22,240 nucleotides of DNA, taken from positions 1-22,240 of IMG/VR virus record IMGVR_UViG_3300010885_033367, one strand, 5' to 3'. Source of the DNA: a virus. Numbering within the stretch: position 1 is the first letter of the stretch; every line of letters starts with the position of its first letter. The notes beneath the pieces are model-generated. The model searched no databases. It had not been told where the DNA came from and saw nothing but the letters and a program-made list of their open reading frames with translations. This document shows positions 1,845 through 22,198 of the stretch, in pieces. Position numbers and translations under genes: made by a program.

Positions 1845-1862
1845 AAGCAACAGGAGAATTCA

Positions 1863-2915
1863 ATGCCAACAGTCTTACAGTTCCGTAGAGGAACTACATC
1901 ACAAAATAACTCATTTACCGGATCACCCGGGGAGTTAAGCGTTGATACTGACCTGGACGTAATACGAGTGCATGATGGGTCTACTCCTGGTGGATTTGCG
2001 CAAGTTGGGCTAAATTGTGTTCAAACCATTACTAATAAAGTTTATAATGGAACAAGTTTGAGTGTGACAGGTAACATTTCGTCAAGTGGTAACATTGCTG
2101 TAGGTGACACTAACTCTATAAGCATTGGTACCTTGGTCATAACCGACGATGCAATTCGCTCTAGCGATCATCAAATTACTATTGGGTCGGCTGGCAACAT
2201 TGGCAACGTAATCATTGGTGGAAATTTAACCGTAAACGGAACTACTACAACCATCAACTCCAACACTGTTACTACAAACGACCTGGTGATCAGCGTTGCT
2301 AACAATGCAATCAGCAGTGCTGCAGCCAATAATGGTGGATTTGAAGTCGGCCCAGCCAACAATCCATATATTACTTGGTTGTATAACAACACCAGCAATA
2401 TTTGGGTAAGTAGTGGTGGTATTGCCTTGACCGGTAATATTGTCAACAACGGTGCCAACGGTACAGGTAACATCGGCAGTTCAACTGGGTATTTTAACAC
2501 TGTGTTTGCCAAAGCAACATCGGCACAGTATGCTGACTTGGCAGAGATGTACTGTGCTGACGCAGAATATACTCCTGGAACTGTGCTTGAGTTTGGTGGC
2601 AAAGAAGAAGTCACTGCCACAACACAATCACATAGTACTCGAGTAGCAGGCATTGTAAGTACCACTCCAAGTTACTTGATGAACAGTACATTGACATGCA
2701 CCAACGCTGTTGAAGTGGCCTTGGTTGGACGAGTTCCGTGTCAGGTAGTTGGCACCATTGCCAAAGGTGATCGATTGGTTGCCAGCTCCAGGCCAGGCAC
2801 TGCCACACGGTTAGACATGGCACAGTATCAACCTGGTTGTATTATTGGCAAAGCTCTCGAAGCATATGACTCAGAAACTGTAGGTACAATTGAAGTGGCT
2901 GTGGGCAGGAATTAA
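1863..2915 (+). CDS. Second tail-fibre-like virion protein
   Basis: The protein has 350 residues and starts at an ATG seven bases after AGGAG. Its first ~40 residues (LQFRRGTTSQNNSFTG, then PGELSVDTD and IRVHDGST) match the small N-terminal module common to phage fibre and tropism-determinant proteins. The middle (residues ~65-215) is low-complexity G/N/T/I repeat resembling the first fibre. The last ~130 residues begin with a QYADLAEMY motif and form a compact non-repetitive domain (TPGTVLEFGG, STRVAGIVSTTPSYLMNS). In T4-like marine phages this domain ends many fibre and baseplate-associated proteins, and it resembles peptidase-G2-like C-terminal domains. Whether it self-cleaves cannot be told. 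It overlaps the next ATG by one base (TAATG), so the two are translationally coupled. Role inferred: receptor-binding or baseplate-associated fibre. Confidence 0.75.
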   Translation: MPTVLQFRRGTTSQNNSFTGSPGELSVDTDLDVIRVHDGSTPGGFAQVGLNCVQTITNKVYNGTSLSVTGNISSSGNIAVGDTNSISIGTLVITDDAIRSSDHQITIGSAGNIGNVIIGGNLTVNGTTTTINSNTVTTNDLVISVANNAISSAAANNGGFEVGPANNPYITWLYNNTSNIWVSSGGIALTGNIVNNGANGTGNIGSSTGYFNTVFAKATSAQYADLAEMYCADAEYTPGTVLEFGGKEEVTATTQSHSTRVAGIVSTTPSYLMNSTLTCTNAVEVALVGRVPCQVVGTIAKGDRLVASSRPGTATRLDMAQYQPGCIIGKALEAYDSETVGTIEVAVGRN

Positions 2916-3577
2916 TGGATGCCAGATACAGAACCGAATACCTTGGTGAGTTTGTAATTCTTGAAACCAAATGGTCTGGTGGTAAAAAATCTGAAACTCG
3001 CGAATGGATTGATAACCCTATTGTCAACCATCATCTCAGTGGACGTGCGGCCTGCATTGGCAGTGCCCTAGACCATGCACGTTTTAATTACACTATACTA
3101 CAACGCCACCGCGGCGGACTATTAGGCAGTAAAAAATTACAGACCTATGGCACTGGAGAAATTGCTCAACAGATGCGCCTAGACTTTACTGTGGAAACCA
3201 ACCCAGATAACCTGCTCAAAATTTTAGAAAGTGGGTATCAAACCAGTAACATTGTGTACACCAGTCCACGCTATTGTATTGCTCACCCAGGAGAGTTTTA
3301 TCTAATTCCCTTGCGACCCAGAATAGTTGACCTAGCCACTGTGGTATATCTAGCAGCCTTTGATGGGCACAAAGAAATATTCATGCTGGGCTACACAGAT
3401 GAAACCGCCGGCGGCCACAATGAATGGATGCAACAAATTACCAATGTATTTACTGCATACCCAGGTACAAAATTTTATCTAGTTGGAGAATCTACCCGCA
3501 TGCCTGACGTCTGGGTCAATTGTGCCAACACTCAGATCATGCCTTATCGAGACTTTATTGGTTACTGCGACGTTTGA
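2915..3577 (+). CDS. Unrecognised 220-residue protein, possible Rossmann/GT-like fold
   Basis: The ATG at 2915 overlaps the preceding stop (TAATG), and AGGA lies seven bases upstream. I do not recognise the family with confidence. Residues 1-60 are charged and aromatic. The central part has the rhythm of an alpha/beta protein. Residues ~115-160 (YTSPRYCIAHPGEFYLIPL, then DLATVVYLAAFDGHKEIFMLG) resemble a hydrophobic helix followed by a strand ending in LGY.DE. That pattern recalls DUF115/MptE-like and sialyltransferase-like proteins, where it borders a nucleotide-sugar site. This is a pattern impression only. Its place after two fibres would suit a fibre-modifying enzyme or a structural or assembly factor. 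The 3' end overlaps the read-through extension of the convergent Nudix gene. Confidence 0.7.
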   Translation: MDARYRTEYLGEFVILETKWSGGKKSETREWIDNPIVNHHLSGRAACIGSALDHARFNYTILQRHRGGLLGSKKLQTYGTGEIAQQMRLDFTVETNPDNLLKILESGYQTSNIVYTSPRYCIAHPGEFYLIPLRPRIVDLATVVYLAAFDGHKEIFMLGYTDETAGGHNEWMQQITNVFTAYPGTKFYLVGESTRMPDVWVNCANTQIMPYRDFIGYCDV

Positions 3578-3660: not shown

Positions 3661-4002
3661 TCATGTGCCCGAATCAATCCAAGCATAGCCTATGTGTTCC
3701 TCGTTGAGCCTGGGTTGGAATTCATAATCAACAAGACAGAAAAAAGTGTGATACTCAAATCCTGCGTCTGCGGTGGTAAACTTTTCCAAAGGAATCAGTC
3801 TAAAGTATTCGGGTACAAATCCTATTTCCTCTGTGCATTCACGATTCATAGCGGCCAGTAAAGTTTCGCCTGCTTCTACTTTGCCTCCGGGCAGGCCCCA
3901 AGCACCTGGATGTTTTGGATCGTTACGCATGAGATATAGATATCGTCGAGTGTTGATTGCGTAAAACCAAACTCCTACAGCCGTTATAATACTAGCGTCC
4001 AT
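3661..4002 (-). CDS. Nudix hydrolase, ended by an in-frame TGA
   Basis: The 113-residue protein carries a perfect Nudix box at residues 40-62 (GKVEAGE, then RE.TEEIGF), so the Mg-binding glutamates E55, E58 and E59 are present. Nudix enzymes hydrolyse nucleoside diphosphates linked to another group (oxidised dNTPs, NADH, ADP-sugars, RNA caps); the substrate here is unknown. The ATG overlaps the end of the gp15-like gene by 19 bases and has a strong GGAGGAAC site directly before it, so it is co-expressed with the neck and tail-completion genes. The frame stops at TGA (3661-3663) just after GYAWIDSGT. The same frame then continues for 32 sensible codons, so the protein is probably truncated. 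A homologue would be expected to have Trp (TGG) at this position. Confidence 0.85.
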   Translation of the reverse strand: MDASIITAVGVWFYAINTRRYLYLMRNDPKHPGAWGLPGGKVEAGETLLAAMNRECTEEIGFVPEYFRLIPLEKFTTADAGFEYHTFFCLVDYEFQPRLNEEHIGYAWIDSGT

Positions 4003-9061: not shown

Positions 9062-9583
9062 ATGAGCTCATTAATGATTGACATAGAAGGTTTAGGAACA
9101 GGTCCCGATGCGACCATTTTAACCATTGCGGCTCAAAGTTTTGACCCGTTTAGTACAGGATACTATGCCCGCCAATACTATGCCCGCATCACCTTAGAAA
9201 GTCAAGAAAATCGTAACATCCAACAGGATACCATAGATTGGTGGGCCACTCAGCCTGAAGCACAAGCCGAAGCATTCATGGAAGAAGGTCGTGTTGATTT
9301 AGATGTGGCCTTGGACAGCCTATACAAGTTGGCTTGGCAACACAAATTTATCTGGGCCAATGGACCAACTTACGATATGAATATTTTGGAACACGCCTAC
9401 AAAAGTTATGGTAAAAGTTTACCTTGGCAGTTTTACAATGTGCGCGATGCTAGAACCATCTACAGCTTATGGCCCGAACTGCCCAAGCCACCCACAAGCC
9501 ACCATGCACTTGAAGATTGTCGTAGACAAATTGATATGTTACAGGCCACATTGAAACATTTAAACGTAAAGGAAATCAGATGA
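9062..9583 (+). CDS. DEDDh-type 3'-5' exonuclease, DexA-like
   Basis: The protein has 173 residues with the DEDDh signature: D7 and E9 in MIDIEGLG, D105 in GPTYDMNILEHAY, and H147/D152 in HHALED (HxAxxD). The intervening IDWWATQPEAQ matches the T.EWW..Q...A motif of T4 exonuclease A (DexA) and the RNase-T/Rv2179c-like group. These enzymes remove nucleotides from the 3' end of DNA or RNA with two metal ions. Whether the substrate is DNA or RNA cannot be told. The stop overlaps the ATG of the kinase gene (ATGA), so the two are coupled. The promoter is host-type with no leader, suggesting early or middle expression and a role in nucleic-acid turnover. Confidence 0.85.
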   Translation: MSSLMIDIEGLGTGPDATILTIAAQSFDPFSTGYYARQYYARITLESQENRNIQQDTIDWWATQPEAQAEAFMEEGRVDLDVALDSLYKLAWQHKFIWANGPTYDMNILEHAYKSYGKSLPWQFYNVRDARTIYSLWPELPKPPTSHHALEDCRRQIDMLQATLKHLNVKEIR

Positions 9584-10248
9584 TCATTGGTATTGCTGGG
9601 TTTCAAGGAAGCGGAAAAGATACTATTGCTGACTACTTACAAAACATCTACGGCTTTAAGCGTGATAGTTTTGCCAGCACACTTAAAGATGCTGTGAGTT
9701 CAGTATTTGGATGGGATCGTGAGTTGCTAGAAGGGCGCACAAAAGAAAGCCGTGCTTGGCGTGAACAAGTGGATGCATGGTGGAGTGAACGTTTGAACAT
9801 GCCCGATTTAACTCCCCGCTATGTGCTACAAGTATGGGGTACCGAAGTGGCTCGCAAGAGCTTCCACGATGATACTTGGATTGCTAGCCTGGAAAACAAA
9901 CTACGCAAAACAAACAACGATATTGTCATTAGTGATGTTCGTTTTCCTAATGAAATTGCAGCCATTAAACGTGCTGGCGGTGTAGTAATTCGTGTTACCC
10001 GTGGGCCGGAACCTGAATGGTACGATGCGGCATTGAGTGCAAATCGTGGGCCAGAAGGTAATATGACATGGGCATTAAGCCTGCAACAACTAGAAAGATC
10101 CAAAATTCATGCCAGCGAAACTGCCTGGATTGGTACTCAATTTGACGCAGTTATTGATAACAATGCTGACGGATTGGACAATCTCTACAGCCAAGTCAAA
10201 CGTCTGGTTCAAGATCTCCAGGTACCCAAGGGCGATCTAGCCGCTTGA
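9580..10248 (+). CDS. 1: Deoxynucleoside monophosphate kinase, T4 gene 1-like
   Basis: The protein has 222 residues, against 241 in T4 gp1. The P-loop is GFQGSGKDT (residues 7-15), followed by a helix and the FAS.LKDAV segment. DVRFPNE (about residues 119-125) and the preceding IVISD strand are typical of phage dNMP kinases. T4 gp1 phosphorylates dGMP, dTMP and hydroxymethyl-dCMP to diphosphates for DNA synthesis. Which bases this one accepts is unknown. RGPEPEWYDAAL is part of the lid region. It starts on ATGA overlapping the exonuclease stop. Together with the exonuclease it links breakdown of nucleic acid to nucleotide salvage. Transcription probably ends at the terminator at 10355-10384, inside the antisense HNH gene. 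Confidence 0.88.
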   Translation: MIIGIAGFQGSGKDTIADYLQNIYGFKRDSFASTLKDAVSSVFGWDRELLEGRTKESRAWREQVDAWWSERLNMPDLTPRYVLQVWGTEVARKSFHDDTWIASLENKLRKTNNDIVISDVRFPNEIAAIKRAGGVVIRVTRGPEPEWYDAALSANRGPEGNMTWALSLQQLERSKIHASETAWIGTQFDAVIDNNADGLDNLYSQVKRLVQDLQVPKGDLAA

Positions 10249-17334: not shown

Positions 17335-17940
17335 ATGAAAAATTTTCAACAATACCTCGCAGAATCTGAGCGCACATACAACTACAGAATCAAAATTGTA
17401 GGTGATGTTGCTCCTGATTTCGTCAAACAGCTAGAAGAAAAACTTGCACAGTTTGACATTGTAAAAATCACCAAGCCAAAAACCACACCGGTGCAACTCA
17501 AGCCTGCTGACTTCCCCAAGCACAGCAACGACAGTGTAACCAGCATGGACGTGGAATTTCGTTATCCAGCTATTGAGCCACAGATCAAACAGATCGCTCA
17601 ATTGTTGATGATGGATCCAAATCGCATCATCATGTTGACTACACCGCATGAAGAAGGTATGGATTCAGAGCGTGAGCGTATTGCGGCACAGAACAAAGAT
17701 TTGTTGGACACGGATTATCCTGCTGACACCGCAGAACAAAAAGCCCTGATTGCGGATTATTCTGCTCCATATGATGAGCATGCAGTATTAAAGAACACAT
17801 ATCGTAGTGACTTTACAGTGGCCGGTGGTAAGACTCCGCCTGCAAAAACTACAAATGATTTGCCAATGGGCAACGACAGCCCAATGACCAAAGTAAAACG
17901 CCCACCACGTCCAGCTACTGGTGCCAACCCAAGAGGATAA
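17335..17940 (+). CDS. Putative capsid-interior protein with T4-like targeting peptide (201 aa)
   Basis: The N-terminus MKNFQQYLAE aligns over all ten residues with the T4 internal-protein capsid-targeting sequence MKTYQEFIAE: five identities and five conservative or similar changes. It ends in the L.E site expected for a prohead protease. After it, residues ~15-105 (TYNYRIKIVGDVAPDFVKQL, then EKLAQFDIVKITKPK and EPQIKQIAQLLMMDPNRIIM) look like a ferredoxin-like beta-alpha-beta domain. Residues ~120-201 are acidic, then proline/basic and probably disordered. I know similar proteins from marine T4-like phages only as unknown structural proteins. Packaging in the head and cleavage after residue 10 are inferences. 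It is followed four bases later by the 637-residue gene. Confidence 0.72.
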   Translation: MKNFQQYLAESERTYNYRIKIVGDVAPDFVKQLEEKLAQFDIVKITKPKTTPVQLKPADFPKHSNDSVTSMDVEFRYPAIEPQIKQIAQLLMMDPNRIIMLTTPHEEGMDSERERIAAQNKDLLDTDYPADTAEQKALIADYSAPYDEHAVLKNTYRSDFTVAGGKTPPAKTTNDLPMGNDSPMTKVKRPPRPATGANPRG

Positions 17941-20159: not shown

Positions 20160-20540
20160 GTGCGAGCCCGAGAGTTTATTGCCGAAGGTGGTAGAGGCGG
20201 AACCAGATCTGCTCCCAACCACGAATTTGAACAAGCACATCCAGGTCTAGTTGGTCCAGGCGGCCAAGGCGATGTGTATTGGGGCCGTTATTACGACCAT
20301 TATCGTGTATCAACATTGGCCGGAATGCATCCAGACGATATTGCTAAAATGGATGAAATTAACTTCTTTGGCAACTTGCCAATATTCAGTGCATACACTG
20401 AATATGACCGTAAAAAACTCAAGGCAATCATGAAAAAGCTTCGCATGAAGCCCACAGACTACATTGGTCCTGGCAGTCTTGAATCAACTGACACCAACCA
20501 CACCAGCCCAGTAACTGCGTTCAAGGGTTACGCAAAGTAA
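20160..20540 (+). CDS. Tagged paralogue 1: putative internal head protein (126 aa)
   Basis: It starts at GTG 20160, two bases after the previous stop. The start is fixed by its conserved N-terminus MRAREFIAE, shared with the genes at 21417 and 21812 and ending in the I.E site typical of T4 capsid-targeting peptides. The C-terminus HTSPVTAFKGYAK is also shared with the other two. Between the tags lies a segment with YDHYRVSTLAGM, then YTEYDRKKLKAIMKKLRMKP, corresponding in position to parts of its paralogues. The middle is much more divergent than the ends. Function unknown. I infer capsid packaging and removal of the first nine residues by the prohead protease. It is followed one base later by the hydrolase gene. 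Confidence 0.78.
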   Translation: MRAREFIAEGGRGGTRSAPNHEFEQAHPGLVGPGGQGDVYWGRYYDHYRVSTLAGMHPDDIAKMDEINFFGNLPIFSAYTEYDRKKLKAIMKKLRMKPTDYIGPGSLESTDTNHTSPVTAFKGYAK

Positions 20541-20541
20541 A

Positions 20542-21420
20542 ATGTGTATAATCATCGCCAAATACTTTGACGGTATTGGTTGGGCCGGCGCCAAAAATCG
20601 CGACCGTAACTATACTCCTGTGTTGGATTTTATTGAATCCGACGAAGACGGTGTTGAACGCATGATGATGCATGACGAGATTACCGGCTACAAAGAAGGC
20701 ATCAACAGCCACGGTATCAGTATCTTAAACACAAGTCTTGATGTGTACGATGATGAAAGTGAAGTCGAAGCAGGCACTGCCAAAGCAAGTCCTGATGGAA
20801 AAACTATTTCTGAAGCATTGTTGCAAGATACTGCACTTGCGGCAGCAAAAATCATTATCAAACGAAAAATGGGTGGGTTTACCATGGTGTTTGATCACGA
20901 CACCATGTATTTGATCGAAGCCAGTGACTGGGACGGTACCAAACCTTACAAATTTGTAGCCAAACGTATACCCAACGATCAATTGGTTGCTAGAACTAAT
21001 CACGGCGTTTGGTTGCCTGGTGCAGGATATCAACGTAAACCTGATAATCAAAGTGAAACACTCAGCAGAATCAGCAGTGAAACTAGATTGTTGTTGGCCG
21101 AGGCTGTGGTAGAAGCAGCTGAAGATCCAGAAGATTTAGTGGATGGCATGTGTCAAGTTTACATCAATGACTCCCAGCTAAATATAATGAGAACCAGCAC
21201 AGAAAAAAAGAAAATGCGGACTACTAGCCAGCAGTTATGTGTACCCAAGGAACGGACACTGTATTGCAGACCAGTTAGTAGTCATTCAAAATTTGATTTT
21301 TGGCGTCTTAATCGTCCCAATACCGGTGTATGGGTTGAGATATTGAGTAATCGTGCTTTATGGCAGAACACCCAAGGTGATCCTCCATTTGGTCAAATGA
21401 AACTGAAGGATGTAAAATGA
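20542..21420 (+). CDS. N-terminal-nucleophile hydrolase-like protein (C45/AAT-like)
   Basis: The protein has 292 residues and starts MCIIIAKYFDGIG. Removal of Met would expose Cys2 as the nucleophile. GAKNRDRNYTP (16-26) matches the N/G-R-D position of Ntn hydrolases (acyl-transferase, penicillin/bile-acid amidase and TANGO2-type proteins). YKEGINSHGISILNTSL (50-66) matches the conserved G.N..G.A... strand. MVFDHDTMYLIEASDW and LVARTNHGVWLPG (149-161) match later strands, with N153 and H154 in the TNH motif of the C45-like group. The family cleaves or forms amide bonds; the substrate here is unknown. It lies between putative internal-protein genes, overlaps the next ATG (ATGA) and has no capsid-targeting tag. 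It may be a virion-linked or host-modifying enzyme; this is inference. Confidence 0.7.
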   Translation: MCIIIAKYFDGIGWAGAKNRDRNYTPVLDFIESDEDGVERMMMHDEITGYKEGINSHGISILNTSLDVYDDESEVEAGTAKASPDGKTISEALLQDTALAAAKIIIKRKMGGFTMVFDHDTMYLIEASDWDGTKPYKFVAKRIPNDQLVARTNHGVWLPGAGYQRKPDNQSETLSRISSETRLLLAEAVVEAAEDPEDLVDGMCQVYINDSQLNIMRTSTEKKKMRTTSQQLCVPKERTLYCRPVSSHSKFDFWRLNRPNTGVWVEILSNRALWQNTQGDPPFGQMKLKDVK

Positions 21421-21815
21421 GAGCTCGTGATTTTGTAGCAGAGGCAAAGTTTGGATCAGCACAGGATGTGCCTGCCAACGCTAAAAAATTGCCAAATCAT
21501 CAGGCCACAGCTATCAAAGGTGCTATCAGCATGCCTGACATTAGCATGACCAAACAAGGCGGCAGTCCTTACACACAATGGCGTTTTGGTATTGCCATGG
21601 CTGGTGCGCCTGACTTTCCTACACCACCTGCTGGTGCGTTTGCTGGCGATCCGCTGTTGGCCACCTATACTGATGTAGACTTAGATATTATCAATGCCGC
21701 TGCCAAATCAGTTGGCGCTGGCCGCGTTACAAAATTAACAGACAATCGTAGCACTGAACACGAAGGTGTTTACAAAACAAGTCCAGTAAAAGGATTTAAA
21801 GGTTATCCAAGATGA
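21417..21815 (+). CDS. Tagged paralogue 2: putative internal head protein (132 aa)
   Basis: The ATG overlaps the hydrolase stop (ATGA). The N-terminus MRARDFVAEAK and the C-terminus KTSPVKGFKGYPR match the other two paralogues. The centre has YTQWRFGIAMAGAPDF, aligned with YDHYRVSTLAGM and YQTYRVGVALARA in its paralogues. It then has YTDVDLDIINAAAKSVGAG. Synonymous and non-synonymous differences at the tag DNA indicate protein-level conservation and not recent copying. It overlaps the next gene (ATGA). Packaging and cleavage after VAE are inferred from the T4 model. Confidence 0.78.
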   Translation: MRARDFVAEAKFGSAQDVPANAKKLPNHQATAIKGAISMPDISMTKQGGSPYTQWRFGIAMAGAPDFPTPPAGAFAGDPLLATYTDVDLDIINAAAKSVGAGRVTKLTDNRSTEHEGVYKTSPVKGFKGYPR

Positions 21816-22198
21816 GAGCCCGCGAGTTTATCACCGAAGAAAAAGCCCTGCCAGCTGATCAAGGCGACCCGTTGGCTTATGTATATAGGATAAACGGATT
21901 GTTCAGCAGCGATACCTATCAAACTTACCGAGTTGGTGTGGCCCTAGCCCGTGCCAGGAGCGATGCAGTAAAAGATGATGTGAATCCTTACATGTTGCCA
22001 TGGGACGACCAAGAAATATTTGGCGAGCACGGAGTTATAGCCGGAGTTGGTGAGGACGTCAGCAATCTTATAGATCAAGCCTTGCAAATGACCGACACTC
22101 CAGGTGGCAAACAATTAGTAGGTTCGGCTGCTAGCGAAGAACCTAAGTCTGTGGAAAAAACAAGTCCTGTAAAGGCATTTAAGGGTTACCCAAGGTAA
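21812..22198 (+). CDS. Tagged paralogue 3: putative internal head protein (128 aa)
   Basis: It starts at the ATG overlapping the previous stop. N-terminus MRAREFITEEK, C-terminus KTSPVKAFKGYPR. The centre has YQTYRVGVALARARSDAVKD, then a P/D-rich loop, then a helix VSNLIDQALQMTD. This is the same layout as its two paralogues, with little sequence identity between tags. The stop overlaps the start of the next gene (TAATG), so the whole cluster is translated from tightly coupled cistrons. Function unknown. Confidence 0.78.
   Translation: MRAREFITEEKALPADQGDPLAYVYRINGLFSSDTYQTYRVGVALARARSDAVKDDVNPYMLPWDDQEIFGEHGVIAGVGEDVSNLIDQALQMTDTPGGKQLVGSAASEEPKSVEKTSPVKAFKGYPR

Follow-up and report, generated by a model that had tools for sequence, protein, structure and literature searches.

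Three small genes in a 22.2-kb virus fragment are paralogues from a single new family, the products of which are probably small internal head proteins of T4-like phages, mostly jumbo ones. The proteins would work like IPI, IPII and IPIII of phage T4, with an N-terminal tag for docking, a cut by a gp21-type protease and a binding tail that is retained. The whole stretch of 22,240 bases that was analysed is referred to as the window. It carries a contractile-tail and head gene block, including genes for a tail tube, a gp4-like head closure protein and, at 17335, a virion protein with an N-tag. The three genes (copies 1–3) and the related features are as follows.

17335..17940, + strand: separate N-tagged head protein, upstream in the same block; starts MKNFQQYLAE, followed by S; phrog_14802 virion structural protein; outside the copy 1–3 family
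20160..20540, + strand: copy 1 (type A), 126 aa, GTG start; N-tag at residues 1–9; C-tail TSPVTAFKGYAK
20160..20186, + strand: N-tag of copy 1, capsid-targeting-like, MRAREFIAE; putative prohead protease cut after E9
20475..20537, + strand: C-terminal conserved segment of copy 1, SLESTDTNHTSPVTAFKGYAK, with S-x-E followed by SPVxxFKGY
20542..21420, + strand: gene separating copies 1 and 2, 292 aa, 879 bases, Met-Cys start, NTN-hydrolase (AAT/C45)-like
21417..21815, + strand: copy 2 (type B), 132 aa, the best conserved of the three copies
21417..21443, + strand: N-tag of copy 2, MRARDFVAE
21750..21812, + strand: C-terminal conserved segment of copy 2, STEHEGVYKTSPVKGFKGYPR
21812..22198, + strand: copy 3 (type C), 128 aa, acidic centre, pI 4.6
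21812..21838, + strand: N-tag of copy 3, MRAREFITE
22133..22195, + strand: C-terminal conserved segment of copy 3, SEEPKSVEKTSPVKAFKGYPR

The translations of the three ORFs possess common N- and C-terminal tags, as an earlier sequence-only reading had claimed. The C-terminal tags were HTSPVTAFKGYAK, KTSPVKGFKGYPR and KTSPVKAFKGYPR, of the form TSPVxxFKGY(P/A)(R/K). The record of 22,240 bases contained exactly three matches to their DNA pattern and none to its reversed control. The DNA-level differences within the tags that this reading had noticed were also found, as the copies differed at synonymous sites of both tags. Its description of three tandem paralogues was right about the paralogy. 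The copies are, however, not strictly tandem, because the unrelated NTN-hydrolase-like gene lies between copies 1 and 2. This gene starts one base past the stop codon of copy 1 and overlaps copy 2 by ATGA, and copies 2 and 3 overlap in the same way.

The 292-aa protein has neither the N-tag nor the C-tag. Its gene was present together with the copy 1–3 family in 49 of 73 loci and occupied the same position in most relatives. The protein showed a weak likeness to AAT/C45 acyltransferases, with PF03417 detected in 13 of 22 relatives (best E 0.0017), and residues C2, D21 and N153 were invariant. Its only named relatives were from two Chryseobacterium phages, at 36% identity. Among the tail genes of the window, a nudix-hydrolase-like gene (3661–4002, – strand) and a gp1-like nucleotide kinase gene (9580–10248, + strand) were recognized by sequence appearance. 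The phrog_14802 homolog at 17335–17940 also begins like a capsid-targeting sequence, with MKNFQQYLAE, and SP(M/V/F) is conserved close to its C-terminal end.

With a profile from which both tags had been left out, 420 ORFs were identified in 190 fetched loci, with one to four copies per locus; 300 sequences were distinct after start trimming. Among these 300 sequences, M1, R2, A3, E5, F6 and E9 of the N-terminal part were conserved at 98–100% (E9 at 99%). The Y..(Y/W)R motif pointed out earlier in the centre is real, as Y52 and R56 were each conserved at 98%. In the tail, the conservation was 100% for S122, 92% for P123, 96% for F127, 98% for G129 and 94% for Y130. The sequence-only reading had missed a further conserved element, S-x-E, about 8 residues upstream of SPV, of which S112 was conserved at 97% and E114 at 100%.

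The centres were also related to each other. Tag-stripped profiles of the copy-2 and copy-3 types aligned with E=1.5e-9 over 79 columns, and that of the copy-1 type matched two other types with E-values of 4e-6 and 4e-5 and the copy-2 type with 3e-4. The copy-1 and copy-3 types did not match directly in this comparison and were linked only via other types. Reversed controls of these alignments stayed below 2% probability. The dN/dS values among orthologs were 0.11 for the N-tag, 0.13 for the centre and 0.13 for the tail, which are rough values because synonymous sites were near saturation. The modular pattern of conserved ends around a divergent middle that had been proposed was thus not borne out. 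Because the centres are homologous without the tags and, among orthologs, evolve no faster than the ends, copies 1–3 are, by their sequences, one paralogous family rather than different effectors between common tags.

The predicted mature proteins of the three copies have pI values of 9.4, 8.8 and 4.6, and the family median is 8.0. The two structure models had a common order of a short N-terminal helix, a helix, the Tyr/Arg helix, another helix and an extended tail, with low pTM values of 0.47 and 0.44. One rigid domain including both ends, an outcome that would have spoken against the sequence-only reading, was not seen in these models, which are too weak to weigh much.

The N-tag consensus is MRAxEF(I/V/L)xE. 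IPII and IPIII of T4 start with MKTYQEFIAE (T4 tag read from NC_000866), of which the EFIAE part is identical to the N-tag identified here. Proteins with the T4 tag are directed to the prohead core, and gp21 cuts the tag at L/I-x-E (PMC9026906, PMC5694885). Co-occurrence of the C-terminal motif with MRAREF-type N-termini, which had been suggested for checking, was general: the N-tag was on all complete family members (413 of 420 ORFs, the other 7 being without a detectable start in the fetched stretch). In the same phages, the N-tag was also found on unrelated GNAT/kinase-like, HExxH metallopeptidase-like, basic and DUF6321-type proteins. The N-tag thus resembles the capsid-targeting sequence of T4 and, because unrelated proteins carry it, is regarded as a modular cargo tag. 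At 254 and 2861 of one locus (L271, G004), N-tagged proteins that resemble a GNAT/kinase-like fusion and an HExxH metallopeptidase are candidate head-packaged enzymes.

A prohead protease of the Peptidase_S77/gp21 family was encoded in 7 of 16 large relatives, in a block that also contained the T4-type portal gp20 and gp23, together with a core protein and a scaffold-like protein. The window fragment does not reach that region and contains no gp21 protease. The copy 1–3 family had no tblastn match in 50,697 named phage records including T4, and the three ORFs matched no Pfam or PHROG family, with one weak match at E=0.09. No homology to IPI, IPII or IPIII beyond the tag was found in Pfam or by tblastn of the same phage records. 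With copy 2 as the query, no relative was found in bacterial genomes. Searches of solved structures and folds gave only non-significant matches, and BFVD gave one uncharacterised relative-like match, A0A6J5KNQ7 (E 6e-4). Weak cyanophage matches (E 0.8) were regarded as chance, as they lie inside a giant tail-fibre gene.

The distribution of the C-tail was different from that of the N-tag. A scan with the strict pattern TSPVxxFKGY over 2.9 million viral contigs gave at least 130 matches in at least 119 stretches. All 130 matches listed were a few residues or a short distance away from a stop codon, and 128 of them were family members by the profile built without either tag. Of the remaining two, one was an edge fragment (L204) and one came from a family gene whose tail had been displaced by a frameshift (L177). 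A modular C-tag on unrelated proteins was therefore rejected, as all 130 listed matches belong to one family. Likewise, the C-tag was not found on the other N-tagged proteins of these phages. The wide occurrence in non-virion proteins that would have contradicted the sequence-only reading was not observed either, since among the matches listed from the 2.9 million contigs the motif was absent from unrelated proteins. A delivery system shared by different effectors, as that reading suggested, thus agrees with the N-tag, which precedes unrelated proteins, but not with the C-tag, which, among the matches listed, is confined to one family with homologous centres. In L177, near 1856–3254 on the – strand, the frame of the family gene is broken just before the tail, and the tail TSPVKSFKGYKKK runs on in another frame.

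A looser C-tag pattern was matched in 20 of 30 large relatives, one to three times each, and never in the controls. In the 344-kb and 320-kb records, three family members were top-ranked by the tail profile. In distant family members, SPV was kept and FKGY was replaced by lysine-rich ends, and their own paralogues ended likewise (L071, L075). The V-N-x-x-S-P-V heptapeptide of the C-tail was seen again as the C-terminal sequence of a prohead core protein (phrog_15696) that adjoins gp21 and ends with GVNTKSP(V/L), a GVNAKSPV-like sequence or GVNTKTPF (L104–L110). In 4 of 7 phages, no more than one of 879 other ORF tails equalled or exceeded the score of the core-protein tail, a rank that is somewhat optimistic because the motif was spotted by eye before the test. 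The motif was weak (TPF) in 2 of the 7 phages. The 'SPM' near the C-terminus of P0005 was rejected as the same motif, as it did not exceed background (rank fraction 0.13).

The last residues also co-varied within some genomes. Those of types A and B of one genome matched in 9 of 30 loci vs 1.5 expected, and those of types C and E in 27 of 36 vs 19.2 expected. In this within-genome comparison against shuffled pairs, co-variation was absent for A/C and weak for other pairs. The test is inflated by related genomes, as relatedness was controlled only in part, and position 4 of the N-tag also showed some within-genome co-variation. Gene conversion was rejected for the tails of types A and B, whose codon identity was not raised (0.407 vs 0.398 ± 0.028). 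Because the A/B tails match without raised codon identity, a shared partner is favoured over gene conversion. From these sequence comparisons, we infer that the C-tail may anchor to a head or core partner common to the paralogues.

It is also conceivable, though unlikely, that the C-tail is conserved simply as a piece of the fold of the family itself, packed on the Y52/R56 helix and without a separate binding role. The tail pLDDT of about 80 in the copy-2 model and the joint conservation of Y52, R56, S112, E114 and S122 are consistent with such packing. However, the pTM values are low and the tail is predicted without helix or strand. Moreover, the heptapeptide also terminates an unrelated core protein, and distant members retain SPV after the loss of FKGY.

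A second propeptide at the C-terminus is a poorer explanation, and we consider it improbable. The prohead protease would cut after S-x-E at E114 and both ends would be removed as in T4 Alt, so that the centre alone is released. The near invariance of S112 and E114 fits a cleavage site, S-x-E is the site recognized by phiKZ-type proteases, and both ends of T4 Alt are processed (PMC5694885). The other likely sites in these phages, however, are (L/I/V)xE, as in the N-tags and in LINE and YLKE of the scaffold-like and capsid proteins, and S at P3 would therefore mean a different specificity. In addition, the conserved peptide past the cut site would still need a role of its own. Equally improbable is that the constant ends serve to deliver various effectors, the centres, which would be ejected into the host like IPI and Alt of T4. 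T4 does package diverse ejected proteins by means of a common N-terminal tag (PMC3012670, PMC9026906), and enzyme-like proteins of these phages also start with the N-tag, but, among the matches listed, the C-tag is on the copy 1–3 family only and not on other N-tagged proteins, the centres are homologous, and the dN/dS of orthologous centres, as low as that of the ends, is unlike arms-race divergence.

For internal head proteins, packaging, cleavage and tail binding of copies 1–3 would proceed as follows. The N-terminal MRAxEF(I/V)xE helix would act as a capsid-targeting sequence by docking on the scaffold core of the prohead, and a gp21-type prohead protease would cut after the glutamate, giving mature proteins of 117–123 residues. 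The extended C-terminal SxE...SPVxxFKGYxR peptide would be retained on the mature protein and bind a partner common to the copies; the shell or another core protein is the probable candidate. In this way, the same kind of site would hold two to four diverged copies. This explanation is favoured because EFIAE is identical to that of T4 IPII/IPIII, large relatives encode the gp21 protease, the cassette is in a virion gene block, the N-tag is on unrelated proteins, the C-tail residues are invariant or nearly so, and the core protein beside gp21 ends similarly. It is disfavoured by the acidic copy 3, as T4 internal proteins are basic, by Pfam and named-phage searches that showed no likeness to the T4 internal proteins, by the patchy tail co-variation and the weak core-protein motif in 2 of 7 phages, and by a window without the protease.

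Similar to IPI, IPII and IPIII of T4, the proteins described here are small, several per genome and have an N-terminal tag ending in EFIAE/(I/V)xE; T4-type head genes and a gp21-family protease are found in the relatives. Different from the T4 internal proteins, of which only the N-tag is common (PMC3012670), the members of this family are homologous over their whole length and have a fixed motif at the C-terminus; one of the copies here is acidic, and homology to the T4 proteins is undetectable beyond the tag. T4 Alt, which is packaged in the head and cut at both ends, at ITE-6 and LTE-619 (PMC5694885), also has special sequences at both ends. Alt, however, is a large ADP-ribosyltransferase, and a C-terminal cut at S-x-E is only putative here. 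The encapsulin cargo-loading peptide is a short C-terminal peptide that docks cargo inside an HK97-fold shell. By analogy, the short C-terminal peptide found here could also dock cargo inside such a shell, although its sequence is different, an N-terminal tag is present as well and shell binding is putative. RaK2 (Alcyoneusvirus) is the nearest named phage by sheath DNA. Its gp046–gp051 block has the same gene order after sheath, tube and gp4, its genes are annotated as virion structural, and gp051 was detected by MS/MS (PMC3622015). RaK2, however, had no match to the family profile or to the N-tag pattern.

More tentatively, SPVxxFKGYxR may be a C-terminal docking peptide that holds the internal proteins and the V-N-x-x-S-P-V core protein to one capsid or core site after removal of the N-tag, a proposal to which we give only a small chance. 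If true, head anchoring in these phages would involve a second signal that is retained and is not known from T4, and the C-tail is a testable candidate for it. The T4 capsid-targeting tag is extended to uncultured T4-like jumbo phages, so that further cargo can be listed by the tag. An abundant and previously unlabelled family is now defined as likely capsid cargo of these phages.
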